Shown: one piece after another, positions 4,266-32,165 of the stretch
Layout: the number at the start of each line of letters is the position of its first letter
Numbering within the stretch: position 1 is the stretch's first letter
DNA from: Enterococcus haemoperoxidus ATCC BAA-382
GTDB taxonomy: Bacteria; Bacillota; Bacilli; Lactobacillales; Enterococcaceae
NCBI RefSeq assembly: GCF_000407165.1
Contig: NZ_KE136480.1
Span: forward strand, 930,001-994,000
Length of the DNA stretch: 64,000 nt
Direction: 5' to 3'
Position numbers and translations under genes: made by a program
The notes under the pieces: generated by a model
Database searches by the model: none
What the model saw: only the letters and a program-made list of their open reading frames with translations
Told to the model about the DNA's origin: nothing

Positions 4266-4308
4266 ATAACCCGAAATAAAACTGAATCTTCGTTTTATTT
4301 CGGGTTAT
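4266..4308 (-). terminator. Isolated 17-bp hairpin, candidate stop for leftward transcription
   Basis: Two perfectly complementary 17-base arms (4266-4282 and 4292-4308) flank a 9-base loop. No gene abuts it. Read on the minus strand the 3' arm is U-rich and followed by TTATCTG, so it could end transcripts arriving from the leftward promoter at 4518-4546. Read on the plus strand it lacks a T tract. The rest of 4131-4452 is AT-rich with no convincing gene. Confidence 0.5.
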
Positions 4309-4452: not shown

Positions 4453-4475
4453 TCTTTATTGTTTGACAATATAGA
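4453..4475. repeat. Left arm of 23-bp perfect inverted repeat
   Basis: Bases 4453-4475 are the exact reverse complement of 5965-5987 over all 23 positions, and the match stops at the next base on either side. The core contains TTTGACAATATAG. The pair encloses the whole recombinase gene. I read it as a recombination site of an invertible segment. Confidence 0.9.
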
Positions 4476-4517
4476 ATGAAATATAAATAGAAAATAATTA
4501 TTTCTATTACATCTACG

Positions 4518-4546
4518 ATTCTAATGTTAAAACGCAAGTAAGTCAA
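4518..4546 (-). promoter_or_regulatory. Outward-facing promoter inside the invertible segment
   Basis: On the minus strand TTGACT (4546-4541), 17 bp, then TAGAAT (4523-4518): five of six matches in each hexamer at ideal spacing. It fires leftward across the left repeat arm, where no gene is in the right orientation. After inversion it would drive the regulator at 6126 with a leader of about 200 nt. Confidence 0.7.
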
Positions 4547-4716
4547 TGGGAGGATAAACTTATTATTTTCATTTTTTTTAAAAATATTTTAAAAATTAGA
4601 GAATTATTAATAATTATTTGTATTATTTATATGCAAAACACTGATTAAACAGGCTTTAAAGAGGGTTCTAAAAATAAGCCGTCAAAAATACCGTCAAAAA
4701 CTTGGAGGAAATCAAT

Positions 4717-5877
4717 ATGTCGAAAAAAGGAGAAAATATTTATAAACGAAAAGACGGACGTTGGGAAGGACGTTATATTAAAAATCGTACTCCTGACGGG
4801 AAAATTCAATACGGCTATGTTTATGGGAAAAAATATACTGAGGTTAAAGAACGTTTGATCGTTTTGAAAGCAAAATATACTGGCAAACAAAATTCACAAA
4901 ATATTTATTATGGTGATTTCCCAGATTGGCTATTATTCTGGAGAGAAAAATATTTAAAAAAAATGGTAAAACAAACTACATTTTCTGTTTATTCAGGTGT
5001 TATCAATAATTACCTTTTAATGTATTTTAATAAAAAAAGATTAACAAAAATAAATTCTATAGATATTCAAGAATTCATTGAGTACTTGGAAAATTTAGAC
5101 TTGTCTTCAGGATATATAAGGAATATTTTTCATATTTTGAAAATTTGTTTGCGTGAAGCGGAAAAGCAAGGATACATCAATCAGAATCCTTGTTTAGGGA
5201 TCACATTGCCGAAAACAAAAATAAAACCTGTACATGCGTTAACCATTAAAGAGCAACGTAAGCTTGAGTTGGCGGCATTTCAATCAAAAAGTTGTTCACC
5301 TATAATTTTAGCTTTGTATTCAGGAATGAGGATAGGTGAAATAAGTGGATTAAAGTGGAGTGATATTGACTTTGAAACAGAAACAATCCATGTTCAGCGA
5401 ACGGTTTACAGAATTAGTAAGTCCACAGGTGATAAAATGAAAACGCAACTCGTTGAAGGAACACCAAAAACAGAGAGCTCAAGAAGAATTATTCCACTAT
5501 CACAAAATTTAAAAAAATATTTATTAGATAAAAAAAAGGAAATGAACTGTGAATATGTTATTGCTGACAAAGGACGAATATCAGAGCCCAGACTGATCAA
5601 TTATCGTTTTAAACGCTTGCTTTGTATAGCTGGATTAGAGAATATACATTTTCATTCATTGCGCCACACTTTTGCTACTCGTTGCTTGGAAAATGGTGCC
5701 GATATTACAAGTTTAAGTCGTTTACTAGGACATACATCAGTGAAAATGACGTTGGATACATATACAGATTCTATGTTGGAAAATAGACGAGCGGCTATTT
5801 CCGCAGTTGATTATTTACTATCTTCCTCTTCACAAAACTTTATTGAAAAGCAAAAATTAGAAAAAATCGTAGGGTGA
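4717..5877 (+). CDS. Tyrosine recombinase (phage-integrase family), candidate invertase
   Basis: A full-length 386-aa site-specific recombinase. The N-terminus (residues 1-55, with GRWEGRY and DGKIQYGYVYGKKYTEVK) resembles the arm-binding domain of integrases. A SAM-like core-binding domain spans about 68-155 and the catalytic domain 175-365. The catalytic set is complete: Arg205 (GMRIGE), Lys251, His313-x-x-Arg316 (HSLRHTF), His339 (LLGHTS) and nucleophile Tyr349 (TLDTYTD). Start ATG 4717 follows GGAGG (4704-4708). It stands alone, fully inside the 23-bp inverted repeat, which suggests it inverts its own segment. The repeated CCGTCAAAAA units just upstream (4679-4700) could be accessory binding sites. 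Confidence 0.93.
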   Translation: MSKKGENIYKRKDGRWEGRYIKNRTPDGKIQYGYVYGKKYTEVKERLIVLKAKYTGKQNSQNIYYGDFPDWLLFWREKYLKKMVKQTTFSVYSGVINNYLLMYFNKKRLTKINSIDIQEFIEYLENLDLSSGYIRNIFHILKICLREAEKQGYINQNPCLGITLPKTKIKPVHALTIKEQRKLELAAFQSKSCSPIILALYSGMRIGEISGLKWSDIDFETETIHVQRTVYRISKSTGDKMKTQLVEGTPKTESSRRIIPLSQNLKKYLLDKKKEMNCEYVIADKGRISEPRLINYRFKRLLCIAGLENIHFHSLRHTFATRCLENGADITSLSRLLGHTSVKMTLDTYTDSMLENRRAAISAVDYLLSSSSQNFIEKQKLEKIVG

Positions 5878-5893
5878 TTCCTACGATTTTTTT
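5861..5893 (+). terminator. Recombinase terminator, overlapping its stop codon
   Basis: AAAAAATCGTAGG pairs perfectly with CCTACGATTTTTT across a 6-base loop; the TGA lies in the loop region. The symmetric A/T flanks should make it work in both directions. It would insulate the downstream regulator from recombinase transcription in this orientation. Confidence 0.9.
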
Positions 5894-5964
5894 GTTTTAT
5901 GCGCCGTCAGTAAAATCGTCAATGGATAGATAAATCAAGTAATATCAGTTTGCATTAGGCTTTA

Positions 5965-5987
5965 TCTATATTGTCAAACAATAAAGA
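5965..5987. repeat. Right arm of 23-bp perfect inverted repeat
   Basis: Exact reverse complement of 4453-4475. It lies 138 bp before the start of the regulator gene. Between this arm and 6126 I find no promoter as good as the one at 4518-4546. Confidence 0.9.
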
Positions 5988-6125: not shown

Positions 6126-6812
6126 ATGTATCACATAGGCTATGTAAAATTAGCAGAAATAAATGAAGAAAAATACATACATTCAATCGAAAAGGAATGT
6201 TCGGTTGAAAAAATCGATCAAAATATATCAGCGCAACAGTTAGAAAAGATAGACGGTCTCATCATTTTTATCGAAAACGATGAGACGATTTGTGCTACAA
6301 GCGAAATCATTTTAAAAATAAAAGAGCGGTCGAATACGCTTATTTGGATTGTTGCACAAAAAATGAATACTATCAGCAAAGTTGTTTTTCTCCAATTAGG
6401 TGCGGATGGAAACTTTGATGATGAGCAATCTCTAGATATCTTTCGTTTAACTATGATCAATGCGTTGAAAAGAAAACGAATAGACCAACAAGAATTATCA
6501 TCGACAAAAGATGAAGAAACAACATCATTTACTTTAGATAATAGAAACCAAGTTATGAAGATTGCAGGAAAGCCAACTACTCCGCTAACCAATTTAGAGT
6601 ATAGAACAATACAAGTTCTTGCAGATAACATAGGAAATACTGTAACGTATGCAGAAATTTATGAAGCAGTCTGGCACAAAAAATATACAGACGAAAAATA
6701 TAAGATCGCTAATGTTATGTTCCATATTAGAGGAAAAATAGAAGAAGATACTTCAAATCCAATCTACATAAAAACGGTACGATCAAGAGGTTATTTACTT
6801 TGTAAAACATAA
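6126..6812 (+). CDS. Orphan OmpR-type winged-helix regulator of WxL locus 1
   Basis: A 228-aa protein. The C-terminal half (about 135-228) is an OmpR/PhoB-type winged helix, with LTNLEYRTIQVLADN and the wing motif TVRSRGYLL. The N-terminal half has receiver-like layout (IDGLIIFIEN, then FLQLGADGNFDD) but no acidic pocket and no Asp at the end of the third strand, so phosphorylation control is unlikely. No kinase gene is adjacent. The start has a strong site, GGAAGGAGAGG. It is the first gene after the invertible segment and heads the locus, so it probably activates the WxL operon. The regulator at 27526 is a paralogue. Confidence 0.88.
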   Translation: MYHIGYVKLAEINEEKYIHSIEKECSVEKIDQNISAQQLEKIDGLIIFIENDETICATSEIILKIKERSNTLIWIVAQKMNTISKVVFLQLGADGNFDDEQSLDIFRLTMINALKRKRIDQQELSSTKDEETTSFTLDNRNQVMKIAGKPTTPLTNLEYRTIQVLADNIGNTVTYAEIYEAVWHKKYTDEKYKIANVMFHIRGKIEEDTSNPIYIKTVRSRGYLLCKT

Positions 6813-6856: not shown

Positions 6857-9406
6857 ATGAAAAGAAGAACAATAGTATTTGTTTGGATTGTAGCATGTAT
6901 TTCAGTAATTGGCATTTTTTTTACGATAAAATCATTTTCTCCAATCAAAGCAGCGGAGCAACCAAATGATCAAATCAAAATCGATTCATTTGCTGAAGCG
7001 GACTTGGATCAAGCCACTGTAGTCTTAACGATCGGAGATACTAAAAAACAAAATGTAATACTGCAAACAGAAGGAATCCAAGAAGTTGACAAAAAATTAA
7101 TAAACAGTGGAATTGATTCAGGCTTTGACGGGAAAATTACTGTAGAAGAAACAGAAGCCAAAAATCGTAAAAAGTTACGCATTGAGAATGGCACCAAACC
7201 ACTGATTTTATCGTTCCCCGTAAAAAAAGAAAAAGCTAGCACACAGGGAAAGATTCGTTTAATGGGAGATGCTGAAGAAAATGTAGCAGAAAAAAGTATT
7301 GCCTTTGCTGAAGCATCAAAAGTTAACGAATCCATAGAAACTCAAGATTTAAATACGCCGCCAACGAAACAATCTAGAGCATTGACAAGAGATGCCACAA
7401 CACCGCCTGTTGATAGCTTACCATTATTAGAAGTTTTTCGAGCACCGATAGGAACAGGGCCGGAATTGATCAATGATGGAAAAGTCCTACGGGTCACAAA
7501 AAATACAGGTAGCCAAATTGGTGCGATCTGGTCACAAAAAAAAATAAATCTAAAAAAAGATTTTCACCTTAAATCTTATTTATATCTAGGCAATCAAGGA
7601 GCAAAAGCTGGAGATGGGATTACGTTTACCTTGCAAAATGATCCTAGAATGGCGACATCACCGACATCAGTTATTGGTTCTTCTGGAATGGGATTGGGTG
7701 CTTATTATGGCGGACGTTCTGGAAATCCATATGTTCAAAGAGGTTTATCAATCGAGTTCGATACTTATTTTAATAATGGCTCAAGTAATCGCATGGACCG
7801 AGAAGTTGGTGAGAATGGTAAAAAGGGACACGTTGCCTTTGTTACACCTAGTACACAAAATAATAGCTATACAGGTCAGCATCATAGTTGGATTTTATCA
7901 CCTGAGTATTTATCTAACGATACATGGCGAACGCTGGATGTATTATGGGATTCTGCCACTCAAACTTTGTCTTATACTCTATCTGGAGTAGGTTCAGATT
8001 CGTATAGAATTCCTGATTTAAATGCAAAATTTGGTGGTACAGAAGTTTATTGGGGCTTTACCGGATCGACAGGTGGATCATATGAAGAAAATGCAATAGC
8101 TATCACACAACTACCAGGTGACGTCGAGCAAACGGCACAGATAGAAAATCTTACACAAAATAGTCAAGCGCAAGAAACGATAGCTGCTAAAAAAAATGAT
8201 ACGTTAAAACTGAAGGATACGATCGTTTTTGATGGAAACAGCATCATGAGTACAGACGGAACAAAAATGAGGGTCAATTTAGCCGAAGGTTTAAGCTATA
8301 AAGCGGACTCTTTGGTATTAGATGGTGTAAAAATACCAGAAAGCTCTATTCAGCAGGTAAACAATCAGTTGATTCTTTCTAACCTTTCATTTTCACGTGC
8401 AGATTTTCCGTATGAATTAAGTCTAGAAGCAACAGTCACAAGTAATGAAAGCGATGTTCAATTAAAGTCTACATTTGACTATCTTTCTTCAGCGGATGAA
8501 GTGGTCTCCTCATCAAATCCCGTTGTTGCAAATATTCCGTTAGTAAAAGGAACGGTGACAATTCATTATGTCGATGAAAACAAAGTTGACTTGGCAACAC
8601 CTAAAATAATAAACCAAAAAGTCGGTACATCGTATGATGAAACGCCTATTACAATCGCTGATTACCTATATGATCGAACAGAAGGAAATGCATCTGACAC
8701 AGTTCAAGAAACCGTACAGGATGTGTACTTCTATTACAAAAAAGCGAAAGCAAACCTGACCGTTCAATTTCTAGACGAATCAGGAGCTGAACTTCACGAT
8801 GCAATTGTAAAAGAAAAAACGATTGGTGAAAAAATTGATTTGACGAAAGATCAAGATGTAAAAGACGCGATCACGAATGTCTTGGCTAAACGATATTTGC
8901 TAGAAAACTCAGGACGTCCCACTAATGAGACGACAGTTCAAATCAGTGCTGATGGAGCGAAAGCCACATACACATTTCAAGGAACCTTATCAATTTACTC
9001 AGGACCCACAGAAATTAATTTTGGTAGTCATGAGGTCAGTTGGAAAGGGACAAAAGATGCGAACCCAACGTATGATCAACCCTTGATTATTTGGGATAAT
9101 CGTAAAACCCTTGATAATTGGAAACTATCCGTCAAGTTAGAAGATGAATTAAGTATGCCAAACAATCCTGAACATGTGCTGAATGGCGTGTTGAGTTATC
9201 AAACAGCAACAGACAAAAAAACACTATCTGTCGATGCCCAAGAAGTATTACAAACAAAACACGAAGCATCAGGACAATATAACGTTTCAAACAAAACATG
9301 GGGACCTGATAAACAAGGCCTTCGCTTAGATGTACCTTCTGGAGCAGTAAAATTGATTGGTGATTATGAAACAACTTTGATTTGGCGAGTAGAAGAAGCA
9401 TATTAA
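6857..9406 (+). CDS. Large WxL-domain surface protein with L-type lectin and MucBP-like modules
   Basis: An 849-aa secreted protein. A signal peptide (about 1-34) is followed by a linker, a bacterial L-type lectin domain (about 188-418; GDGITFTLQNDPR, SIEFDTYFNN, YWGFTGSTGG), a beta-rich stretch, a MucBP repeat (about 566-635, VTIHYVDENKVDL), a related repeat and a C-terminal WxL domain (about 715-849). WxL marks are NWKLSVKL and the terminal LIWRVEEAY, where the second motif is W-x-V rather than W-x-L. The likely role is a non-covalently wall-bound adhesin binding glycans. It is co-directional and closely spaced with the small proteins that follow, so probably one operon. Confidence 0.88.
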   Translation: MKRRTIVFVWIVACISVIGIFFTIKSFSPIKAAEQPNDQIKIDSFAEADLDQATVVLTIGDTKKQNVILQTEGIQEVDKKLINSGIDSGFDGKITVEETEAKNRKKLRIENGTKPLILSFPVKKEKASTQGKIRLMGDAEENVAEKSIAFAEASKVNESIETQDLNTPPTKQSRALTRDATTPPVDSLPLLEVFRAPIGTGPELINDGKVLRVTKNTGSQIGAIWSQKKINLKKDFHLKSYLYLGNQGAKAGDGITFTLQNDPRMATSPTSVIGSSGMGLGAYYGGRSGNPYVQRGLSIEFDTYFNNGSSNRMDREVGENGKKGHVAFVTPSTQNNSYTGQHHSWILSPEYLSNDTWRTLDVLWDSATQTLSYTLSGVGSDSYRIPDLNAKFGGTEVYWGFTGSTGGSYEENAIAITQLPGDVEQTAQIENLTQNSQAQETIAAKKNDTLKLKDTIVFDGNSIMSTDGTKMRVNLAEGLSYKADSLVLDGVKIPESSIQQVNNQLILSNLSFSRADFPYELSLEATVTSNESDVQLKSTFDYLSSADEVVSSSNPVVANIPLVKGTVTIHYVDENKVDLATPKIINQKVGTSYDETPITIADYLYDRTEGNASDTVQETVQDVYFYYKKAKANLTVQFLDESGAELHDAIVKEKTIGEKIDLTKDQDVKDAITNVLAKRYLLENSGRPTNETTVQISADGAKATYTFQGTLSIYSGPTEINFGSHEVSWKGTKDANPTYDQPLIIWDNRKTLDNWKLSVKLEDELSMPNNPEHVLNGVLSYQTATDKKTLSVDAQEVLQTKHEASGQYNVSNKTWGPDKQGLRLDVPSGAVKLIGDYETTLIWRVEEAY

Positions 9407-9424
9407 ATATTGGAGGAAAAATCA

Positions 9425-9772
9425 ATGAAGAGAAACAACCTAATTTATTTCCTATTGACCTCTGTAATCTGCTTCAGTTTTGGGTTAAGTAGTTTTTTGA
9501 CTGTTGATGCTGAAGAAATAGGACAAGTTCAGACAAATGCAGGTGTTGGTTTTTATGAGGAAAGTACACAAAGTAGCAGTTCAACAGAGACTACAGCCGC
9601 AACTACTCAGTCAGATATTTCAAAGAAACCGATAGGCAGATATCCTTCTACAGGTGAACTGGTGAAAAAAAGTGTAGCACTTAGCGGAGTTGTTCTTATT
9701 CTTTTTGTTGCCTTATTCATTTTATGGAAACGGAAAAAGAATAATCAAAAGGAAAAGACAAAGGGGGAGTGA
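9425..9772 (+). CDS. Small cell-wall sorting-signal protein (YPSTG variant), locus 1
   Basis: A 115-aa protein with signal peptide (to about residue 29), a short Ser/Thr-rich stretch (SSSSTETTAATTQ), a sortase-type signal YPSTGE, a hydrophobic helix and a basic tail (WKRKKNNQKEK). The usual Leu of LPxTG is Tyr here, so anchoring efficiency is uncertain. Start ATG 9425 follows TTGGAGG. One such tiny sortase substrate occurs in each of the three WxL loci (also 28333 and 43421). Function is not known to me. Confidence 0.8.
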   Translation: MKRNNLIYFLLTSVICFSFGLSSFLTVDAEEIGQVQTNAGVGFYEESTQSSSSTETTAATTQSDISKKPIGRYPSTGELVKKSVALSGVVLILFVALFILWKRKKNNQKEKTKGE

Positions 9773-9779
9773 ATCGTTC

Positions 9780-10583
9780 ATGTTGAAAACCAATAGCGTA
9801 ATTCTTCAAGCAACCGTTACGATCATGATCCTTTCCTTCATTCAGCCGATAAGTGTGAATGCTGAGTCACTTAGTCATTCAGACAGCGGGAAAGTCAAAT
9901 TTAGTGGAGAGTATCCTAAAGGTATTGTCGATCCAGAACATCCAAATAAAGGTGTCGATCCAGGTCCTAGTCCTTCGACAGATGGTGCGTTGAGATTCGA
10001 TTTTGTTCCTCAGTTAAATTTTTGGAACAATGTAATTTCAGAAAAAGATCAAGTATATCATGCAAATGCACAACTGTTTTTAGACGGTACAGGTGCAAGA
10101 GGAAATTTTGTCCAACTCTCTGACTATCGGGAAAAAGGCAGCGGCTGGAGTTTACAAGTTCGCCAAGAAACCCAATTGATCAATGCGTCTACAAAAAATA
10201 AAGAATTGAAAGGTTCTGTGATTTCATTTGATCAATCATGGACGAATTCAATCAATAGTCCATCATACGCGCCAAATGTCTCAAAAGAAGTGATCCATAT
10301 CAATAATATTGGAGAGACATATGATTTAGCACAAGCAAAACCAGGGACAGGCGAGGGGACATGGTCGATCATCTTCGGTGCTTCCATCGATAATGGCCAG
10401 GGGAAAAAAGACACATTAAGCCCTAGGATCGACCAATCAGGCCAGCCATTTTTAGATTCGGATTTTAATAATCAGCCAATCTATCAAAACAGTGCAGTCT
10501 CTTTATTCATACCAGGTAAAACAAAAAAGGACCCAGTCCACTATCAAACGATGTTAACTTGGATATTATCTGAGTTGCCATAA
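9780..10583 (+). CDS. WxL-domain surface protein, locus 1 (first)
   Basis: A 267-aa secreted protein: signal peptide to about residue 26 (VNAES), a Pro/Asp/Gly-rich linker (VDPEHPNKGVDPGPSP), then a WxL domain filling the rest. Both signature motifs are present: WSLQV (GSGWSLQVRQE) and the C-terminal LTWILSELP. The domain binds peptidoglycan non-covalently. ATG 9780 is chosen because it gives a clean signal peptide and follows GGGGGAG (9763-9769). It starts 7 bp after the sorting-signal gene. Confidence 0.88.
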   Translation: MLKTNSVILQATVTIMILSFIQPISVNAESLSHSDSGKVKFSGEYPKGIVDPEHPNKGVDPGPSPSTDGALRFDFVPQLNFWNNVISEKDQVYHANAQLFLDGTGARGNFVQLSDYREKGSGWSLQVRQETQLINASTKNKELKGSVISFDQSWTNSINSPSYAPNVSKEVIHINNIGETYDLAQAKPGTGEGTWSIIFGASIDNGQGKKDTLSPRIDQSGQPFLDSDFNNQPIYQNSAVSLFIPGKTKKDPVHYQTMLTWILSELP

Positions 10584-10611
10584 ATAAAAAACATTTTGGG
10601 AGGAAACAAAA

Positions 10612-11406
10612 ATGAAATTAGCACACAAATTATGCGGAGCAGCGTTATTAACAGCGGTCGGAATCGGACTTGCTTTACCATCAGCAACAAAAGCGGACGG
10701 AGGAAATGAAAAAGTTCACTCTTCAACCGGTAAAGTAAAATTCACCCAAGAAGGTACAGGAACAGATACGGTCACACCACCAGAAACGGATGGTCCTGAA
10801 ATTACAGAACCAACTGGAAATACAGACAATGGTCCATTGAAAGTGATTGCTATTTCACCACTTGATTTTGGAACAAATGAAATCACTTCAGCAACTGCAG
10901 GTGGTTGGGAGTATTATGCAAAAATCTTTAAAACAACTGAAAAAGGCAATGAATCAAATGAAGTTGAGATGCCAAACTTTGTTACATTCAAAGACGAACG
11001 TGCAGATGATAAACCAAATAAATACACATTAACTGCAAAAGCAACAACCTTCACCAATACAGCTGGGAAAGAATTGAAAGCTGCTACAATAACATACGAC
11101 AACATCCGTCTAACAACAACAGGTGATGCTGGGCAAATCAATTCAGCAGCAGCTCCGACAACAAAAGTATTAGCGACTGACGGAACAACACCTTCTGAAT
11201 TTGTAAACCAAGATGCAGATGATAAAGGATTTGGTCGTTTTGATTTAGTCTTCGGTAAAATAGCTGACGGAAATGCAGATAAGTCAATCAAACTCTGGAT
11301 TCCAGCAGCAAACAATAAATTATCAACAGCAAGTGAATATACATCAACAATCACTTGGACAATTGCAGATACACGCGCTCCTGAGGTTCCAGAAGAAGGC
11401 GAATAA
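10612..11406 (+). CDS. WxL-domain surface protein, locus 1 (second)
   Basis: A 264-aa secreted protein with a signal peptide ending near ATKADGG, a Thr/Pro/Asp-rich linker and a WxL domain beginning LKVIAISPLDFGTNEIT, a form typical of the family. The distal motif is ITWTIAD (W-x-I), followed by an acidic tail PEVPEEGE. AT-poor lysine/threonine codon bias and a strong GGGAGGA ribosome site suggest high expression. It is followed by an intercistronic hairpin and then the WxL-interacting protein. Confidence 0.9.
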   Translation: MKLAHKLCGAALLTAVGIGLALPSATKADGGNEKVHSSTGKVKFTQEGTGTDTVTPPETDGPEITEPTGNTDNGPLKVIAISPLDFGTNEITSATAGGWEYYAKIFKTTEKGNESNEVEMPNFVTFKDERADDKPNKYTLTAKATTFTNTAGKELKAATITYDNIRLTTTGDAGQINSAAAPTTKVLATDGTTPSEFVNQDADDKGFGRFDLVFGKIADGNADKSIKLWIPAANNKLSTASEYTSTITWTIADTRAPEVPEEGE

Positions 11407-11436
11407 TCTAAGAATCATAAAATATAAGTAGGTTTG

Positions 11437-11477
11437 GGACAGACTCATCAGTTTTATTTTTGTGATGAGTCCTGTTC
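11437..11477 (+). promoter_or_regulatory. Intercistronic hairpin between WxL gene and WxL-interacting protein gene
   Basis: GACTCATCA (11442-11450) pairs with TGATGAGTC (11463-11471), extended by a GGACA/TGTTC outer stem with one bulge. There is no proper T tract after it, so it looks like a partial terminator or mRNA stabiliser. Hairpins sit at the same place in loci 2 and 3. Confidence 0.6.
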
Positions 11478-11498
11478 TCTTTGAAAGAAGGCAAGAGA

Positions 11499-12572
11499 AT
11501 GAAGAAAAAAGTAAGTATTTGGTTAATAAGCATTATATACATAGCGTTGCCACTTTTTGCCATCCCTAATTGTGTATCGGCAGATGAAAAAAGTGAACAG
11601 GCTGCGGCTGGTGGGTTTACTTATAAAGTAATCTATCCGGAGAATCAACATAAAGAAGTGAGCTATTTTGATTTAAGAATGAAGCCAGGGCAAAAACAAA
11701 CAGCCGTTATCCAAATGAGCAACAATTCGGATAAGGAAATTACAGTTGATGTTAGTTTGAATGCTACTAAAACCAATAGTAATGGTGTGTTAGAGAATGG
11801 GCCATCAAGTTTAGAGAAAGATCCCTCTTTAAAATATGACTTCGCTGAAATCGTAAAAGGAAAAGAATCTGTAGTAATTCCGCCAAAGCAGACCGTTGAT
11901 TACCCTCTAGAAATTACGATGCCTGAAACCACATTTGACGGTGTTATTTCTGGTGGTATTTATATGATCCAAAGAGACCAAGAATCTGAGAAACAAGCAG
12001 GCATGATCAAAAATAAATATGCTTATCTAGTGGGAATGTTACTTACGGAAACGGATAAAAAAATCAAACCAGATTTGGAATTGAATAAAGTTTATGCAGA
12101 TCTAAAGAACTATCGGAATACAATTATTGTTGATTTTTCAAATACCCAACCGGCTTATCTGGATGAGATGGCAGTGGATGTTCAAGTAATGGGCGAAAAG
12201 TCTGATGAAGTTCTGTATGAAACAAAGCAAACAAAAATGCGGATGGCCCCTAACTCCAAAATCAATTTTCCTGTATCGATGAATGGCGAAAAAATGGTGC
12301 CGGGAAACTATCGTGCACATATTTTGGTGACAGCTAAAACGGGTGAAAAATGGGAGTGGGAAGAAAACTTTACTATTACAAATGAAGAAGCTGATAAATT
12401 TAACCAAGAAGATGTTAGTTTGCTTCAGGAAAATCGAATTAATTGGCAATTGATCGTAATGATTATTTTAAGTGTTCTTGTAGTTATTTTGATCATATTT
12501 GTTAGTGTTCGCGTCATAAATAAAAAGAAAAATAAGAAGAAAAGAAAAGTGGTTGGACGTAAAAAACGCTGA
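11499..12572 (+). CDS. WxL-interacting protein (DUF916/DUF3324), locus 1
   Basis: A 357-aa membrane-anchored wall protein: signal peptide (to about residue 29, CVSADE), DUF916 (about 35-160; YFDLRMKPGQKQTAVIQMSNNS), DUF3324 (about 165-305; KPDLELNKVYADLKNYRNTIIVDFSN), a transmembrane helix (about 317-342) and a basic tail. In this family the first domain binds peptidoglycan and the second host ligands, and the protein complexes with WxL proteins. ATG 11499 gives the natural signal peptide, with AGAAGG upstream. It partners the WxL proteins just upstream. Confidence 0.93.
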   Translation: MKKKVSIWLISIIYIALPLFAIPNCVSADEKSEQAAAGGFTYKVIYPENQHKEVSYFDLRMKPGQKQTAVIQMSNNSDKEITVDVSLNATKTNSNGVLENGPSSLEKDPSLKYDFAEIVKGKESVVIPPKQTVDYPLEITMPETTFDGVISGGIYMIQRDQESEKQAGMIKNKYAYLVGMLLTETDKKIKPDLELNKVYADLKNYRNTIIVDFSNTQPAYLDEMAVDVQVMGEKSDEVLYETKQTKMRMAPNSKINFPVSMNGEKMVPGNYRAHILVTAKTGEKWEWEENFTITNEEADKFNQEDVSLLQENRINWQLIVMIILSVLVVILIIFVSVRVINKKKNKKKRKVVGRKKR

Positions 12573-12755
12573 TGTTGAAAAGAATAAGATGGAGCGTAGT
12601 AAGACGTTGTTACCATACAATATCTAGCATCAAGAGCTAGCCTTTCGGGAAAAAGATAAAATATGTCTGTGACAAAAAGCGTCACGCCTCTATTTTCTAT
12701 TTTCCTGTCAAGGCTGACAGAGCTCTTTCAGCTTTTATATTAGGAGGATAGAAGT
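12573..12755 (+). ncRNA. Structured intergenic leader, type not recognised
   Basis: About 180 nt upstream of the small membrane protein can form several hairpins: CTAGC/GCTAG (near 12627-12641), GTGAC/GTCAC (near 12670-12686), and two that exclude each other, CTGTCA/TGACAG (near 12707-12721) and GCTGA..TCAGC followed by TTTTAT (near 12714-12739). This antiterminator/terminator layout suggests attenuation. I cannot match it to a riboswitch class. Confidence 0.4.
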
Positions 12756-13421
12756 ATGTCATTACTGGATTGGGTATTTATTGGAACATTATCAAGTGCT
12801 ATCCTCTTTGCACTATTTTCTTTACTAAGCGTTATTTTCCTTTTCAGTACTCGAAATCAAGTTCGGCAGCTAGCGAGAATTAGGACAAAAAACGCACGAA
12901 AACGAAAGAAAATCAAACGAGTGTTGAAAAAAACTGAAGCAAAGCGTAAGAAACAAGGTTGGAATCTAGTGGTGTTTATCATGTTAGCTTGCATTATGAG
13001 TGGGACAGCATTTTATGCACGTTACTACCAAGCGACAAATTTAGGAGAACGAGATTCAGAGGGAATTGTCCAAGGATACTATTTACTCAATGAAACGAAG
13101 AATCAAATCAATATTTTGAATGAAAGTAGTAATCCAGAGAAGGCAGAGAATAATTTACGTGAATTAGCAGCGAAACTATCAAGTTTTGGAATGCGTGGTG
13201 CCGATGGCCGATTAACAGCAGAAGGCCAACGATTATTGACTCGCTATTATAATCAAGTCAAAGAATTAGGACTAAATTTGAATAATCAAAGTGTGGAAAT
13301 GGTGGAAAATACTCAAACACGTGAAACATATATCAACGATTTGCAAAAAGCACAAAAAATCCAATCGAAGATCATTACCTATTTTAAAATCAATGAAAAT
13401 GCATTGAAACAAAAGAAATAA
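12756..13421 (+). CDS. Small two-helix membrane protein, unknown
   Basis: A 221-aa protein I cannot assign. It has a membrane helix at about 8-31, a very basic stretch (about 35-67, rich in Lys/Arg), a second helix (about 69-87), then an outside domain of about 130 residues with helical, Asn/Gln/Glu-rich character. It starts after TAGGAGGA. It ends 4 bp before the signal-peptidase-like gene, so the two are probably co-transcribed and may act together in processing or assembly of exported surface proteins. Confidence 0.75.
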   Translation: MSLLDWVFIGTLSSAILFALFSLLSVIFLFSTRNQVRQLARIRTKNARKRKKIKRVLKKTEAKRKKQGWNLVVFIMLACIMSGTAFYARYYQATNLGERDSEGIVQGYYLLNETKNQINILNESSNPEKAENNLRELAAKLSSFGMRGADGRLTAEGQRLLTRYYNQVKELGLNLNNQSVEMVENTQTRETYINDLQKAQKIQSKIITYFKINENALKQKK

Positions 13422-13425
13422 GCAG

Positions 13426-14133
13426 ATGAAAATAATGACTGAAAAACAAAAGGGAAACAATCAGAACCTCACGAAGAAAAAATGTTCGAAAATACAAAGG
13501 TACACGACACGAGAAAATAGAAAAAGAATAAGCAACACCTCTTTTAAAAAGAAAAAGAAGCTAAGGAAACGAAGAAAACAACTAAAATCGACAAGAGAAC
13601 TTTGGAAAGAAATAGGATTGACTATTCTTATCGTGCTCTTTCTTTTTATTATCCTATCGACAACTATTTTTGCTTTGCCAAAAAGTGAAGGCTATGGCAT
13701 GGCGCCAACAGTCAACGATGGTGAGCGAGTCTTTGTGAATCGGTTTGGCACCGTTAGACGATTTAATTTGATTTATTTTAAAGTCCCCGATAGTGGAGAA
13801 AAATCAATTCGTCGTGTGATTGGTTTACCAGGAGAAAATATTCAGTACAAAAATGATCATCTTTTTATCAATCAACAAGAATCAATTGAGCGTTTTTTAC
13901 AAAGCCAACTAAAACGAGCAGAACAAAATGAAGCATTATGGACAGATGATTTTCGGTTGCCACAAATTCCTAATAACAAATTTGACCGAATACCAAAAGG
14001 CAAATACTTAGTATTGGGTGATAATCGTCCTTATTCGTCAGACTCACGCTACTATGGATTAGTGGATGAAAAGGAAATCATCGGAACGGTTGAAATGAGG
14101 ATTTGGCCTTTACATAAGCTGAAAAGCTACTAA
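13426..14133 (+). CDS. Signal-peptidase-I-like protein lacking both catalytic residues
   Basis: A 235-aa S26-family protein with a long basic N-terminus, one membrane helix (about 63-83) and the family boxes. Box B reads GYGMAPT, putting Gly91 where the catalytic Ser should be. Box D reads IRRVIGLPGE, putting Arg129 where the general-base Lys should be. Box E (LGDNRPYSSDSRYYG) is intact, so the fold is kept. It should not cleave signal peptides. The intact paralogue lies 18 bp downstream. Signal-peptidase-like SipA of streptococcal pilus loci also lacks the dyad and assists assembly, a useful parallel. No strong ribosome site is visible. Confidence 0.85.
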   Translation: MKIMTEKQKGNNQNLTKKKCSKIQRYTTRENRKRISNTSFKKKKKLRKRRKQLKSTRELWKEIGLTILIVLFLFIILSTTIFALPKSEGYGMAPTVNDGERVFVNRFGTVRRFNLIYFKVPDSGEKSIRRVIGLPGENIQYKNDHLFINQQESIERFLQSQLKRAEQNEALWTDDFRLPQIPNNKFDRIPKGKYLVLGDNRPYSSDSRYYGLVDEKEIIGTVEMRIWPLHKLKSY

Positions 14134-25219: not shown

Positions 25220-27148
25220 TTAGTTTATTTTTTTTACTTTTTTGGCTGTGATTCTGTAAGATTCTCCGATTTTCCCTGTAATAGTACTCGGCGCAGCAAG
25301 TTCATTGCCTTGTTCATCAACAAACTTAATCGTCACAGAGCCTTTACCATCATGATGTGTTTGTTTTTCCTTAGATTGTTGTTTCACCGTTTCTTTGGAA
25401 TCAATCATTTTTTCAGTGGCTGGCAGCGTATTCGGAAACAATGTTGGCAACACTAGAGCCTCTTTCAATGCCTCAGAAACGTCTACTTGGTTCTTAACGA
25501 TGTGAGTAATGCTGCTAATGATAGGGTCAGTTCCGTAACCAAAATATTCTCTGGGGAATGTAGAATGTGAATTGGTCAAAGGAATCAATGGTTTCTCTAT
25601 CTTTTTATACAAGTAATGGACTGCTTGTGCTTGATTCGTAAACGAGCCACTAGCATTTTTAGGAAGTGCTATTAGTTGCCAGCCTGTTATTTGTTTGTTT
25701 ACAGAAGTATAAGGTGTATCAAGCTTTCCCTGCAATTTTTCTGGTTCAACAAGTGTATTCCCATTTATATCTGTGTAGTAGATCATTACAGGTTCACCAA
25801 GTGCTCTTTCATAGGTAAAAATAACTTCCTGTGGATTTTGTGTGAAAGAGCCTTCTGTATTCCCAGTGGTTGATTTCAATACCCAAGTATTGATGTCTTT
25901 AGGTACAGCGGTGAATGAGGCATCGATTTTTCCTTCTAAGACAGTAGATTCACTAATGGGCTGACCTGCTTCATCCTGGTATTTAATGGTCACTGGTGCT
26001 CCGTCTTCAGGTTCGTCAATCACGTTAAATTGTTGGAAGTACGTTCCAGCAGAAATGGCATAGAAACTAAAATGAGGTGGGGTCTCATAGCTTCCTACAG
26101 GATTATTTATCCGAGCATTATATGTAATACTAGCGAGACTATGAAATTCCTCTTCTGTAACAGCTGAGACAGTAATTCCGAGATCTGTGATTTGTAAGCG
26201 ATCTGCCGGCAATTGTGCATCATTGAATTCAAGTACAGTGTTACTAGCAGAAGTTGATGTGGTAAATGGCGGCACATAACCATCAAAATTTGTGAGTCGG
26301 TTAGGCATTCCAGCAAATGGAATAAACATTGTTTGCTGTGTGGCATCATAGTCTAAGATACTCCGGGACATCGTTACTGGAAGACTTGTTAGACCGGTAT
26401 TTTGCCCAAACGCTGCTAGGTCATTCAACGCTGGAAAATCATTGATTACAGTAAAATCTGTAATACCGCAAAATTGAACAGAAATGGAACGTAATTTAGG
26501 TAAATTTTTCAAAGGTTCAAGTGTCGTAATAAACATGTTTTTATCCAAATATAGACGTTCAAGGCTCATAAATGTAGTGAATTTTGATAAGACCGCATTA
26601 TCTAGTTGGCTAGAAGTTACTGAGATATGAGTAATTCCAGTACTTTTGCTTAGATCAGGAAAAGTGCTAGAGGTTAAAAAGTTCCCACTTAAACTGACGA
26701 AAACGAGCGATGTCAATTGTTCTAAAGGGGTAAAGTCCGCCACGTTGTTATTATCTAAAGAGATAGCCCCTAAGTTTGTCGCGTATTCTAGACCTACCAA
26801 ATTGTTGATTTGTATAGACGTATCATTCGTTATCGTTAAAGAAGTCAGGCTCTCCATATCTTGCTTAGTAAGTACATCATCTGTTGATTTTCCTAATTTC
26901 TTTAAAATAGTTTCTCTTAGAACCTTGTCAGGAACGGATACTATTTCTGATGCAACTCTTGTAAAAGGAAGATCTGGACTGGATGAGTGTAGAGAAGAAT
27001 TGTACGGAGCCGATTCAGAAGAAGGTATGGGTTCAATTGTCGTTGGGTCATCTTGGTTGATAGCTGTCGCTTCGATGGGCAAATTTACTAAAGTATAAAT
27101 ACTCAAACAGAGCATCGAAGGTAGGAAAATTTTTTTTGCGTTGTTCAA
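25220..27148 (-). CDS. Leucine-rich-repeat/MucBP surface protein, truncated in its third MucBP repeat
   Basis: A 642-aa secreted protein. After a signal peptide (1-30) and Pro/Ser linker come internalin-like leucine-rich repeats (about 75-300; LTSLTITND, LGAISLDNNNVADFTPLEQL), a beta-rich spacer, two complete MucBP repeats (about 386-450 and 453-520), a linker and the first half of a third (GSVTIKFVDEQGNELAAPS, near 609). It stops there with no sorting signal. The start is TTG 27148 with a good GAGGAG site. Without an anchor it should be released unless the wall-binding part is supplied otherwise. Confidence 0.85.
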   Translation of the reverse strand: MNNAKKIFLPSMLCLSIYTLVNLPIEATAINQDDPTTIEPIPSSESAPYNSSLHSSSPDLPFTRVASEIVSVPDKVLRETILKKLGKSTDDVLTKQDMESLTSLTITNDTSIQINNLVGLEYATNLGAISLDNNNVADFTPLEQLTSLVFVSLSGNFLTSSTFPDLSKSTGITHISVTSSQLDNAVLSKFTTFMSLERLYLDKNMFITTLEPLKNLPKLRSISVQFCGITDFTVINDFPALNDLAAFGQNTGLTSLPVTMSRSILDYDATQQTMFIPFAGMPNRLTNFDGYVPPFTTSTSASNTVLEFNDAQLPADRLQITDLGITVSAVTEEEFHSLASITYNARINNPVGSYETPPHFSFYAISAGTYFQQFNVIDEPEDGAPVTIKYQDEAGQPISESTVLEGKIDASFTAVPKDINTWVLKSTTGNTEGSFTQNPQEVIFTYERALGEPVMIYYTDINGNTLVEPEKLQGKLDTPYTSVNKQITGWQLIALPKNASGSFTNQAQAVHYLYKKIEKPLIPLTNSHSTFPREYFGYGTDPIISSITHIVKNQVDVSEALKEALVLPTLFPNTLPATEKMIDSKETVKQQSKEKQTHHDGKGSVTIKFVDEQGNELAAPSTITGKIGESYRITAKKVKKIN

Positions 27149-27525
27149 TAGTAATACTCCTCAATAAATATAGTTATAAAGTGAAAGAATCAATCTGTTT
27201 GTGAAGTTTATTTTTGATTAAAAATCGTCTATTTTTATAGATTATTCTTTCTGGATAACTTTTTAATATCAAAAATATTTTATATAAGAAAAAGAAATCA
27301 ACTAATATAGTACACTTTTTCACTAATAACATCTATAAAATAATCAAAAGAATTTCTTTATTTTTTTGTAAGTTCGGAAAAAATGCGGACATTTGCAAAA
27401 AAACGGGAAAATAGTTTCTTTCGTGTGATTGTATTTTATTTGTATCTAGACGAATATTAAATAAGCAAAATAAAAATAATTGTGATTTGTTTTTGAGATT
27501 TTTTATTGAATAGGAGAGGAATGTT
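27149..27525. promoter_or_regulatory. Divergent AT-rich promoter region
   Basis: This 377-bp spacer separates the LRR gene from the locus-2 regulator. It is very AT-rich. An imperfect inverted repeat (GAAAGAAT-c-AATCT at 27183-27196 against AGATTATTCTTTC at 27239-27251) lies in the LRR leader and could be an operator or leader hairpin. I find no consensus promoter in either direction and no copy of the 23-bp repeat from 4453. Confidence 0.4.
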
Positions 27526-28206
27526 ATGAGGGTTGGGATACTAAACACAGAAAAAAAGAGTAGTGAAACATTTATTTCCTATAAAGCCTCTGGATGTTTA
27601 GTAGAAAATAAAAAAGTAGTCGATGAGAAGGACTTACAAGATATAGATGCATTACTCATTTGTAAAAATCAGACATTCAGTGTTGTAGAGGTTTGTGAAT
27701 GGGTTATCAAAAGTAAAATGTGTCGTTCGATTCCGATCTGGATAAGCACTACTGAAAAACAAGTAGAGGAAAAAAACATTTATTTACAATTAGGTGTTTG
27801 TGGGATTTTTGAAGATTACTCCCTTGAAGAAATAGATTTGGCTATTAGCAACAGCTTAAATACAATGAAACCGACGCAACACATGAAAATGAAAGAAGAG
27901 TCAATGTTGCAATTAGATCCGTTAAAGCTAAGCCTTAATGTTAATAATGTAACCATTTCACTGACAAAATCAGAATATTATCTGGTTGCTCTTCTTTATG
28001 AAAACAAGGAAGAGGTCTGCACCTATGAAATGCTTGCGGAATCTATTTTTGGTAAAGATAGTGAGTTATTGGGTGAAAGTGGGCAAAGTAGAGTAGCGAA
28101 TATTGTTTGTAAAATTCGAGCAAAAATAGCCCAAGCCAGTGATGGAAAAAAAGAGTTGCTCAAAACAATCCGCTCAAGAGGCTACATGCTAACTTTATCC
28201 GAATGA
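27526..28206 (+). CDS. Orphan OmpR-type winged-helix regulator of WxL locus 2
   Basis: A 226-aa paralogue of the regulator at 6126. The C-terminal winged helix (about 135-226) carries LTKSEYYLVALLYENKEEVCTY and the wing motif TIRSRGYMLTL. The N-terminal half is receiver-like (IDALLICKNQ, YLQLGVCGIFED) but lacks the acidic pocket and phosphoacceptor Asp. No kinase is near. Site AGGAGAGG precedes the ATG. It heads locus 2 and likely activates it. Confidence 0.87.
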   Translation: MRVGILNTEKKSSETFISYKASGCLVENKKVVDEKDLQDIDALLICKNQTFSVVEVCEWVIKSKMCRSIPIWISTTEKQVEEKNIYLQLGVCGIFEDYSLEEIDLAISNSLNTMKPTQHMKMKEESMLQLDPLKLSLNVNNVTISLTKSEYYLVALLYENKEEVCTYEMLAESIFGKDSELLGESGQSRVANIVCKIRAKIAQASDGKKELLKTIRSRGYMLTLSE

Positions 28207-28332
28207 AGCAAACATGGAGAGGAGGTGAGCAATAGAATCTGACGAGTCATTAGACAAGGCAAATCCTCCGACAAACAAAATCGGTACTTAGTAGAAAAGA
28301 ATATCGTTATTTAAGGCAGAGGGGAGGCAATT

Positions 28333-28626
28333 ATGAAAAAACTAATTCAATCTAGTATTTGTTTACTGCTCTTATTTGTCCTATTTTATGGAACAACTGC
28401 AGAAGCCTCTGGAAAAACGCAATCAGATATTACTTTTATTCAAGGTGACCATCCGAAAAAACCGATTATTGATACTATTTTTTCTGGAAATAAAAAAGGA
28501 ATACTTCCTCATACAGGGGAAGCGTTAAGCCTGTACTTACTTATTATCGGGATTTGTCTGTTGATTTTCATTTATCTAGGGTTTTACTTAAAAAATAAAA
28601 ACACACGAAAGAAGGAACAAGAATGA
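28333..28626 (+). CDS. Small LPHTG cell-wall-anchored protein, locus 2
   Basis: A 97-aa sortase substrate: signal peptide (to about 26), a mature part of only about 30 residues, LPHTGEALS, a hydrophobic helix and basic tail (KNKNTRKKEQ). Its stop overlaps the next start by 4 bp (ATGA). Equivalent to the small proteins at 9425 and 43421. Function unknown. Confidence 0.85.
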   Translation: MKKLIQSSICLLLLFVLFYGTTAEASGKTQSDITFIQGDHPKKPIIDTIFSGNKKGILPHTGEALSLYLLIIGICLLIFIYLGFYLKNKNTRKKEQE

Positions 28627-29471
28627 AAAAGAAATTAGTTGCAAGTTTATTGTTGAGTGGATTGGTATTAAGTTACGGCTCTACAGGAGTTTATGCAGAG
28701 GAAACAAGTGCAGCAGCCAAAACAAAAGCTGAAACAGAATTTACTGCAGGGGATCGTCCCGATCCATCGAAACCAGAAGAAGGACCAAAAGATCCTAATC
28801 CAGTAGATCCAGACCCAGATCCGACAGATCCAACGAAACCCAAACCACTACCAGAAGCAAATAATGTTTATGTCACCCATTTACCAGACATTTCATTTGG
28901 TACAAATAAAACAGAGTTGAAAACAACTGAATACGAAGCGCTAACTGAAAAAAGAACAAAAGGGCAAGGCACTGAAACATTTTATATGCCTCATTCTGTT
29001 CAAGTAGCAGATTTATCCGGGAATAGTGAAACAAAATGGAAATTGAGTGTTCAACAAGATGACGTATTCAAAACAAACGATAGCACACCGAAACAATTAG
29101 ACAATTCTCGTATTCGAATTTATGGAAATACATTAACAAGTACCGCCTATGCAGCCGCAGATTTAGTGGACAAAGTTGCAGGTGTTGCACTAAATGAGAC
29201 GGATGAATTTGGCGCGTTTTCAACGATCCCAGTTAAAAGTGATACACAAGATGAATTAGTGGTGTTGGAAAACAAAACACCTGGCTTCACATTGAACTCG
29301 TATACTTCTTCTGTTTTTAGAAATAGTTATATTGAAGAAGACTACGATGCGACTAAAACACCTACAGCATCTCGCTACGAAGGGGTCAAATTAAATGTGC
29401 CAGCCAGTGATCAATCACAAGCGAAAGCTTATTCAACGAATTTAACTTGGACATTGACTGTAGAACCGTAA
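28623..29471 (+). CDS. WxL-domain surface protein, locus 2 (first)
   Basis: A 282-aa secreted protein: signal peptide (to about 26, VYAEE), a Pro-Asp-rich linker (KDPNPVDPDPDPTDPTKP), then a WxL domain from about residue 75 (ISFGTNKTELKT). Both motifs are present: TKWKLSVQQD and the terminal LTWTLTVEP. Translationally coupled to the LPHTG gene. Confidence 0.92.
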   Translation: MKKKLVASLLLSGLVLSYGSTGVYAEETSAAAKTKAETEFTAGDRPDPSKPEEGPKDPNPVDPDPDPTDPTKPKPLPEANNVYVTHLPDISFGTNKTELKTTEYEALTEKRTKGQGTETFYMPHSVQVADLSGNSETKWKLSVQQDDVFKTNDSTPKQLDNSRIRIYGNTLTSTAYAAADLVDKVAGVALNETDEFGAFSTIPVKSDTQDELVVLENKTPGFTLNSYTSSVFRNSYIEEDYDATKTPTASRYEGVKLNVPASDQSQAKAYSTNLTWTLTVEP

Positions 29472-29529
29472 AAATCGAATCATTAAATAAAAAAACATCT
29501 CATCAGCAACAAAGATAAGGAGCGGAAAA

Positions 29530-30348
29530 ATGAAAACAACTATAAAAAGAATTTTAGGATTAAGCTTAGCAGCAGCGGGAATTTTAAGCTTAGCAACACC
29601 CGCTTTTGCCGAAACAGGAGCAGTAAAAACAGATGGAAAAGCGTCCTTTGTGCCTCAATCTGGTGACATCAATACGATCAAACCTGGTACAGATGAAAAA
29701 ATCGATATCGTAGACGGAAACAACGAACGAGTAACCGTTGAAAATATTCAATTAATGCATGTTCCAGATTTTGATTTTGGTAGTAACGAAACAAGTGTTG
29801 ATACAAAAAATTATGATGCTATTTATGAACATTATCAAAAAACAGGCGATACGACAAAATACGCGATTCCTCACTTTGTACAAGTCGGTGATGTTTCTGG
29901 TGTGCAAGGAACAGCATGGGCTGTGACAGTGGAACAAGAAGCGCTGTTTAAAGAAACTGGAGGACATGCCTTGAAAGCATCCAGAGTCAATTTATACAAC
30001 CAAACCTTGACCAATAATGTTCAAACTGGAAATGTGGCGGATGTTGTGACAGGATTGACGATCCCAAGTGATGGTGCTGTTCAAGTTCCTGTAAAAGGTG
30101 TGGATACAACTGGCAGTATTGCGGTACTAACATCTAAAGCTGGAAAGACTGACCAAACAACCACAAACGGAACCATCAGTTCAGTTGTCTTCCAAAAAGA
30201 TTACGACGAATCAAACTACGGAAAAGCTGATTCCCCAGCGTTAACAGACAAAAATACAGATGTAAAACTAAATGTTCCACAAAGCGATGGTGTACAAGCC
30301 AAGGCTTACGGAGCTAAATTAAATTGGACGTTAACGGTCGGACCGTAA
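29530..30348 (+). CDS. WxL-domain surface protein, locus 2 (second)
   Basis: A 272-aa secreted protein with signal peptide ending TPAFAET and a WxL domain (from about 70, VPDFDFGSNETSVDT). Motifs are TAWAVTVEQ (W-x-V) and the terminal LNWTLTVGP. It is similar over its length to the preceding WxL protein (shared FKE/RVNLYNQTLT and Y-DESNYGKA-type segments), so the pair probably arose by tandem duplication. Confidence 0.92.
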   Translation: MKTTIKRILGLSLAAAGILSLATPAFAETGAVKTDGKASFVPQSGDINTIKPGTDEKIDIVDGNNERVTVENIQLMHVPDFDFGSNETSVDTKNYDAIYEHYQKTGDTTKYAIPHFVQVGDVSGVQGTAWAVTVEQEALFKETGGHALKASRVNLYNQTLTNNVQTGNVADVVTGLTIPSDGAVQVPVKGVDTTGSIAVLTSKAGKTDQTTTNGTISSVVFQKDYDESNYGKADSPALTDKNTDVKLNVPQSDGVQAKAYGAKLNWTLTVGP

Positions 30349-30360
30349 AACCCAGTTTTT

Positions 30361-30403
30361 ATTGGTGGAAAGTTCCATTTTTAGGAACTTTTTGCCAATT
30401 TTG
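30361..30403 (+). promoter_or_regulatory. Intercistronic hairpin, locus 2
   Basis: AAAGTTCC (30369-30376) pairs with GGAACTTT (30384-30391), with an outer TTGG/CCAA stem and a short TTTT after it. A weak terminator or processing site between WxL and WxL-interacting genes. Confidence 0.6.
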
Positions 30404-30420
30404 TTAGAAAGGAAAAATGT

Positions 30421-31584: not shown

Positions 31585-32140
31585 GCAAAAGCCTTTTTCT
31601 TTCTACCTTGTTCTGACATTACTACTTATGCTTCTAATAAGCGGTGGTATTGCAGGGTATATATGTTATCCATTCGCCAATAAAATCAGCGGCAACTGGG
31701 TATCGACCGATCAAGCCATGCAGCTAACGAGCCAAGGGAATATGTGGGAATTAGCTATTGCGGATTACCAAAAAACAAAAGGGTTTACGCTTGTGTTTAC
31801 AGGAAAATGGACAGCCGCAGGGGTCAATAAATATGATGGGAAACAAGTACAATTATTCGCTAAAATAGCGAAAGCGAGCTTTTCTAAAGAGGAAATCAAT
31901 ACATTGGAAAAAAAGTCCGATCTATACACAGTTTCTGATCAAACTGAAAAAGAGCTTACCTTGCAGTACACAAAAAAAGGAATCAAACAAATTCAGCCAG
32001 GTTCTAATTTGAATAAAGTCGTACATATGACGTTAGAAAATAGTCATTGGACGAAGCAGAAAGAAAAGTTGTACCTAAATAGCAGTTACTTTTCTACTGA
32101 ACGGATTGAATTTACGTACAAAGGTGAAAACGAAATATAA
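31514..32140 (+). CDS. Single-pass membrane protein of WxL locus 2, unknown
   Basis: A 208-aa protein I do not recognise: acidic/polar N-terminus, one membrane helix (about 25-50, VLTLLLMLLISGGIAGYI), and an extracellular domain with KGFTLVFTGKWTAAG. ATG 31514 is chosen because AAAGGAAAAG lies before it and it keeps the helix near the N-terminus. The 71-bp overlap with the preceding gene points to translational coupling. It takes the place that the two-helix protein has in locus 1. Confidence 0.75.
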   Translation: MTNENNEQPINDLPQVQETINEDKQKPFSFYLVLTLLLMLLISGGIAGYICYPFANKISGNWVSTDQAMQLTSQGNMWELAIADYQKTKGFTLVFTGKWTAAGVNKYDGKQVQLFAKIAKASFSKEEINTLEKKSDLYTVSDQTEKELTLQYTKKGIKQIQPGSNLNKVVHMTLENSHWTKQKEKLYLNSSYFSTERIEFTYKGENEI

Positions 32141-32165
32141 AGTGTTGTGGAACATCGGACGAAAC

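Follow-up and report, generated by a model that had tools for sequence, protein, structure and literature searches.

A probable self-encoded promoter inversion cassette in front of the regulator of a WxL surface-protein locus in Enterococcus haemoperoxidus

The window analysed here, a stretch of 64,000 nucleotides from the genome of Enterococcus haemoperoxidus ATCC BAA-382 (two contigs, 3.58 Mb), carries a tyrosine recombinase gene followed, on the same plus strand, by a regulator gene and a WxL surface-protein locus. The recombinase open reading frame (4702–5877) opens at a TTG codon, but the best start is the ATG at 4717, giving a three-domain protein of 386 residues (4717–5877) on the combined evidence of the reading frame, Pfam, alignment and a structure model. 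It contains a Pfam Phage_integrase domain (PF00589; E-value 2.8e-26), and R205, K251, H313, R316, H339 and Y349, which we take to be the catalytic R-K-H-R-H-Y set, are invariant across 46 aligned family members. The predicted model shows an N-terminal beta-beta-beta-helix domain, a helical core-binding domain and a catalytic domain. Lambda Int aligns from residue 1 of this model, but with an rmsd of 13.8 Å, in a fold comparison in which the absence of a family from the match list excludes nothing, and a sequence query of residues 1–67 matched no integrase. The nearest solved relatives are transposon integrases (Tn1549 Int), and the nearest named relatives are from Enterococcus sp. DIV0212c (89%) and E. 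crotali (84%).

The regulator (6126–6812) has an OmpR/PhoB-type DNA-binding domain, identified by Pfam and alignment, and is the presumed output of the switch proposed below. Its receiver-like N-terminal part gave no Pfam match to a receiver domain and, in an alignment of 20 relatives, the position at which a phosphorylated aspartate would be expected is occupied by another residue in the window protein, which may therefore be an orphan regulator. The WxL locus (6857–12572, plus strand) begins 44 nt further on, so that regulator and locus probably share one transcript; a gap of at most 150 nt to the next gene was likewise found behind the regulator in 40 of the 51 family loci, out of 103 regulator-linked cassettes, in which it could be measured. 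Pfam and the reading frames identify the locus genes as those for a lectin/MucBP/WxL protein, a small LPXTG-type protein, two WxL proteins and a WxL-interacting protein, with PF13731 present in three of the products and both PF06030 and PF11797 in one, as expected of a WxL locus.

As the original prediction had stated, the intact recombinase is the only gene enclosed by a perfect 23-bp inverted repeat, the arms of which (4453–4475 and 5965–5987) are complementary at 23/23 positions and lie 1489 bp apart. We regard these arms as the core recombination sites. The left site, on the plus strand, consists of an outer half TCTTTATTGT, a centre TTG and an inner half ACAATATAGA, and is quasi-palindromic (TATTGT-TTG-ACAATA); the right site is its inverted copy on the minus strand. 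The left site occurs at the same place in three orthologues, with 23 of 24 letters retained in each, the right site is also kept in three orthologues, and a search of the host genome with the 23-bp site returned no copies beyond the two arms. Outside the left site lies a perfect 17-bp hairpin (4266–4308), which from its sequence could end an outward transcript in the present orientation.

Just inside the left site, on the minus strand at 4546–4518, is a predicted sigma-A-like promoter, TTGACT-17-TAGAAT, which faces left and out of the cassette. With 10 of 12 letters matching, it is one of two tied for best among 13 hits between 3.5 and 7.5 kb; chance alone would give 18.8 such hits in this interval, and the promoter is not rarer than expected by that measure. 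Promoter scores here and below use generic base frequencies. Its −35 and −10 letters and their spacing are, however, identical in 4/4 orthologues, while the spacer sequence varies, and we take it to be real because of this conservation and because an outward promoter recurs throughout the family (see below). The terminator-like hairpin predicted at 5861–5893, where the recombinase gene ends, was located at 5860–5893 on the plus strand. Inversion about the repeat maps position x to 10440 − x, which agrees with the original prediction in placing the promoter at 5894–5922, facing the regulator at 6126; it would then stand some 200 nt before that gene, with the right core site in between. The best promoter score in the present gap between the right site and the regulator is 5.4, against a threshold of 9.

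The host genome contains 13 members of the recombinase family (E-value 1e-60 or better), 12 of which sit between inverted repeats, each with a regulator paralogue downstream on the same strand. In 10 of the 11 cassettes other than that of the window, this neighbour matches the window regulator best; in the remaining one (L049) it matches the window's second regulator, and its longest reading frame overlaps the repeat. Surface-protein genes like those of the window (WxL, LPXTG-type and WxL-interacting) lie behind the regulator in 10/11, and were not matched in L038. The thirteenth member (L046, C2:837636) has neither repeats nor such a regulator. All 22 genomes examined in the genus carry the family, with 195 members in total and 6 to 13 in each.

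A set of 198 loci, mostly from Enterococcus with some from Clostridia, and including named contigs and plasmids of both, was drawn, as far as the genus genomes are concerned, from among the matches listed for the 195 members, part of the listed places being retrieved. It was left from 281 reading-frame hits after removal of frames shorter than 600 nt, hits within 700 nt of the end of a stretch and duplicate copies of a single place; one locus of the genome designated G021 is counted twice in both the 195 and the 198, both assembly copies having been kept. Flanking inverted repeats scored at least 18 in 154 of the 198 loci and at least 16 in 160, compared with 0/198 shuffled controls scoring at least 16. 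When the left end of one locus was paired with the right end of another, 17/983 combinations reached 18, probably because related cassettes share a site. A wider search of the 38 loci scoring below 16, from 2.6 kb to the left to 4.2 kb to the right and as far as the sequence stretches reach, gave clear repeats in three (L053, L068 and L085). There were 31 loci with neither repeat nor regulator, a few of which (e.g. L109, L115 and L116) have short repeats scoring 14–15 and are possibly diverged cassettes. Inverted repeats, arm-type sites (described below) and a nearby regulator are all missing from family members such as L046, L224, L232, L237 and L256. The core sites are mostly 20–37 bp in length and their sequence differs from clade to clade.

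A single gene between inverted repeats of this length, present in many copies per genome and related most closely among solved structures to transposon integrases, might also describe an insertion sequence-like mobile element with a tyrosine recombinase, of which the repeats would be the transposon ends and any inverted copies re-insertions. We consider this very improbable. All 12 repeat-flanked cassettes of the host genome occupy the same place relative to a regulator paralogue, which scattered insertion would not produce; copies that are 87–95% alike share the regulator and some 110–130 nt outside the left repeat; and the repeats themselves vary between clades. Three of these copies (L041, L043 and L045) resemble one another to this degree in cassette and regulator, while the genes behind differ, so that the switch seems to travel together with its regulator as a unit. 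The downstream difference between L041 and L043 falls mainly in the front part of an adhesin gene: the two are 98.7% identical over 3 kb downstream and 95% identical in cassette and regulator, with only ~69–74% identity in the adhesin front between, a local diversification of the adhesin.

The setting of the cassettes extends beyond WxL genes. On a megaplasmid of E. raffinosus, a family cassette with 18-bp repeats precedes a regulator and the accessory Sec genes SecA2, SecY2 and Asp1, and on a plasmid of E. gilvus a cassette with a weaker repeat (score 17) precedes a WxL cluster. A Pfam scan of 15 chosen neighbour genes, some of which gave no match, placed clostridial cassettes before S-layer, dockerin/cohesin, chemoreceptor or TetR-type genes. 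Beyond the L049 cassette, at 8818–13991, the translations resemble, by eye, a type I-C CRISPR-Cas cluster.

The outward promoter is a general feature of these cassettes. Counts were made in the 122 of 123 Enterococcus-type cassettes that have at least 150 nt upstream of the recombinase. Within the first 110 nt of the cassette, and with the arm motif masked, an outward promoter was present in 107/122 (13.0 expected), and in 34 of 44 clusters at 70% identity it was found in the majority of members; it often takes the form T(T/A)GACT-17-TAnnAT and lies inside the left core site. The unmasked count over the whole upstream stretch was 114/122 against 23 expected, a figure that contains 13 hits whose −35 element is the reverse complement of the arm motif. 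Promoters directed towards the recombinase showed no excess, either in the first 110 nt (8/122; 9.8 expected) or over the whole upstream stretch (17/122).

The terminator and the regions outside the sites were assessed in the 103 Enterococcus-type cassettes with a regulator on the right. A terminator-like hairpin follows the recombinase gene, ahead of the right core site, in 74/103, compared with 3/103 shuffled sequences. A regulator promoter active in either orientation had been named beforehand as evidence against a switch; between the right site and the regulator, promoters occur family-wide in 7/103 cassettes (10.4 expected), which is no excess, and the window gap scores as given above. 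Together with the short gap behind the regulator, this suggests that both the regulator and the surface operon probably rely on the promoter that inverts. Outside the left site, 22/103 cassettes have a promoter facing in (13.1 expected) and nine have one facing out (13.3 expected). Outside the right site, an inward promoter was found in 50/103, against 9.3 expected, although most members carry it in only 13 of 38 clusters; examples are L063, L158, L145, L039 and L071. Such a promoter would read the recombinase in the sense direction only after inversion, favouring a return to the original state, and may represent a possible built-in bias to OFF in the family at large. We do not claim this for the window locus, where, as in two orthologues, it is weak (scores of 7.9, 4.4 and 5.4) and lacks conservation.

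A second set of short sequences accompanies the core sites. Just before the recombinase start in the window is a putative arm-type site (4678–4697, plus strand) with two CCGTCA motifs at a 12-bp period, and a putative downstream counterpart (5903–5922), with CCGTCA and TCGTCA at the same period, runs in the same direction. Using the strict pattern GTCA-n8-GTCA in the 154 loci with a repeat score of at least 18, we found it upstream in 96/123 Enterococcus-type cassettes, downstream in 86/123, at both ends in 64/123 and at either end in 118/123, compared with none upstream and one downstream on the opposite strand. One pair lies just upstream of the recombinase start and the other between the recombinase end and the right core site, and the two are co-directional. 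In the 200 nt outside either core site the pattern was absent from all 154 loci. The clostridial cassettes have it upstream in 20/31 and downstream in 4/31, and among the 31 loci with neither repeat nor regulator it is missing from 30. Separate arm-type sites beside the core sites are the arrangement of heterobivalent integrases of the lambda/Tn916 type, and the N-terminal domain of the recombinase would probably bind the CCGTCA motifs.

The quasi-palindromic core sites, and an arm motif beside the ribosome-binding site of the recombinase that would also allow autoregulation, could suit a quite different scheme, in which the recombinase serves in replicon resolution or element integration and the repeats act as operators, bound by that enzyme or by the regulator. 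Among integrases on viral contigs that do not have the family's N-terminal signature, however, 39 of the 40 that could be scored have no such repeats and one has them, while they are present in two of the four viral-contig members with the signature, the other two scoring below 16 (32 hits near contig ends were left out of this comparison). Taken with the inversions described next, this makes the operator scheme the least probable of the alternatives that we considered.

Orientation was compared at the window locus and across the family. An orthologous locus is present in 4/22 genomes of the genus, the other three being colinear with the window through the cassette and both flanks, and the locus DNA is ~80–83% identical between these species; homologues of the upstream neighbour, an oligopeptide-binding protein, occur in 22/22. 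None of the three orthologues is an inverted copy, and the four species thus share one orientation, which is half of what had been set down beforehand as refuting the original prediction. The proposed comparison of relatives therefore gave no inversion of the window's own locus, while it did reveal inverted paralogous cassettes in two genomes, G021 and G006, and it is from these paralogues that we infer switching in the window. A regulator lies within 1.5 kb in 115 loci; the recombinase points towards it in 113 and away from it in two, and both of the latter are inversions. Together with the single orientation at the window locus, this indicates that inversion happens seldom, strongly favours one direction or is rarely caught.

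In G021, a 3.84-Mb contig begins and ends with the same ~40 kb (99.9% identical), and the two copies are colinear save for one inverted cassette of 1.56 kb and small scattered differences. The breakpoints fall in the 28-bp repeats of this cassette and the exchange is reciprocal: the outer half-sites swap, whereas the inner half-sites stay with the cassette, so that the exchange is confined to 14 bp in the repeat and the crossover lies inside TATAACTTCTACTT. The simplest reading of the 40-kb repeat is an untrimmed circular overlap, with ends derived from molecules in different states, although it could be a true duplication. In G006, a cassette at another locus is inverted relative to its counterparts in the genomes G013 and G020, a difference between species, with near flanks colinear at ~78–81% identity. 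Among all pairs in which both flanks are related, orientation agrees in 135 and is opposite in three. Compared with three relatives, a clostridial cassette (L107) also looks inverted, judged by a single flank, an appearance that paralogous regulators could produce. No inverted copy was found among the E. raffinosus megaplasmid records, of which, beside the query record itself, three match over 94% on one strand and one matches only 26% of the query. Paralogous cassettes of the same anatomy, recurring throughout the family, have therefore inverted exactly at their repeats. Breakage at these positions is not expected of operator sites, and inverted copies that retain their flanks and exchange half-sites within 14 bp argue against re-insertion of a mobile element.

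A more serious alternative, although still an unlikely one, is that the window cassette once inverted and is now fixed in the OFF orientation. The single orientation in 4/4 species would agree with this, as would G006, in which the orthologous recombinase is broken while the repeats are still present, so that the switch can evidently be lost. This G006 orthologue (L053/L012) and L085 of E. crotali, each with a broken recombinase and both core sites present, are probably naturally locked switches. In the window, however, the recombinase reading frame is open and keeps its catalytic residues, the two sites match at all 23 positions, and both promoter and arm-type sites have been kept between species as far apart as the locus identity given above.

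We therefore consider that the window locus is, in all likelihood, a self-encoded invertible promoter cassette before a WxL regulator. That reading, put forward in the original prediction, remains the best one, with cassettes of the same layout occurring in both orientations and the outward promoter conserved. The window cassette would invert like its paralogues, with its own recombinase as the enzyme: the protein would act on the two inverted core sites, its N-terminal domain probably also engaging the arm-type sites, and turn over the 1.5-kb segment that includes its own gene. The present orientation would be OFF, since the promoter faces away and the recombinase terminator would shield the regulator; after inversion (ON), the promoter would transcribe the regulator and the WxL operon behind it. 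Both expression states are deduced here from the arrangement of the DNA. Given the 113/115 bias, either OFF would prevail in sequenced cultures or inversion would be rare. Flipping of such cassettes is probably how the bacterium switches many of its surface-protein clusters on and off.

Several known systems resemble this one in part. The FimB/FimE fim switch of Escherichia coli likewise couples an invertible segment between short inverted repeats, and a tyrosine recombinase, to a surface structure, and in both the fim and RecV switches the recombinase gene lies outside the invertible segment, whereas each cassette here encodes its own enzyme inside, with 12 such sets in one genome. The Hin segment carries an outward promoter, but Hin is a serine recombinase that uses an enhancer and Fis; here the enzyme is a tyrosine recombinase, and each end of the cassette has arm-type sites. 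The Tn1549/Tn916 and lambda integrases integrate and excise elements, whereas here the enzyme's own gene lies between two core sites in opposite orientation, and inversion is what was observed.

The RecV switches of Clostridioides difficile share with our cassettes short inverted repeats, an invertible segment, a tyrosine recombinase and a surface-structure output (PMC5903667), in keeping with the earlier remark that invertible promoters with tyrosine recombinases are known in other Firmicutes. Recombinase genes inside their own segment, of which Hin of Salmonella is an example, are already known, as is promoter inversion by tyrosine recombinases (PMC5903667). Rin of bifidobacterial prophages and Tsr15 of Bacteroides fragilis are armless tyrosine invertases acting between inverted sites, Rin being stressed as without an arm-binding domain, and how inversion is favoured in such enzymes is left open (PMC6109161); the family described here differs in its extra N-terminal domain and paired arm-type sites. 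In Clostridia, inverton group 139 and invertase group 35 place a tyrosine-type recombinase near invertons (PMC11892184), and are perhaps the clostridial relatives found here, matched by description rather than sequence.

Inversion has been reported as rare in Bacilli: PMC5903667 gives one inversion signature among 22 Bacilli samples, and PMC11892184, the main text of which does not contain the string 'Enterococc', gives 0 as the median number of invertons per genome among Bacillus-like Firmicutes. The 6–13 family members in each of 22/22 genomes, in a family with inverted repeats around most of the loci studied, stand against that picture. A search of open-licence PMC papers found no inversion switches at enterococcal WxL loci, in line with the suggestion that such a coupling was undescribed, no inversion enzyme with arm-type sites and no description of the number of switches per genome. 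Self-encoded promoter inversion is thus known, and it is the arm-site integrase design, the link to a WxL regulator and the number per genome that we did not find described.

More speculatively, the Enterococcus group may hold a large set of self-contained switches, in which lambda/Tn916-like integrases have become invertases that share one arm code and have core sites of their own, toggling regulators of surface proteins and accessory secretion, and in part of which the promoter outside the right site would make recombinase only in the ON state and drive the cassette back to OFF; we offer this as a tentative proposal. If the cassettes work as read here, phase variation would extend, in combination, over WxL loci, accessory Sec systems and further surface clusters, and could account for patchy surface phenotypes seen in culture. 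An arm-domain family with a constant arm motif and clade-specific core sites also allows the question of inversion preference to be tested, and may supply a set of orthogonal enzyme/site pairs.

Elsewhere in the window, a second WxL-like region (25220–36041) contains, as named by eye, a leucine-rich/MucBP-like protein, WxL-like genes and a surface protein of 1277 residues, together with a regulator paralogue (27526–28206) beside which no recombinase reading frame is listed. Three large regulators also lie in the window: that at 23712–25187 matches the AcpB/EbpR/MafR family just under the curated cut-off (114.5 of 130 bits), and those at 39205–40713 and 62296–63843 resemble it by eye.
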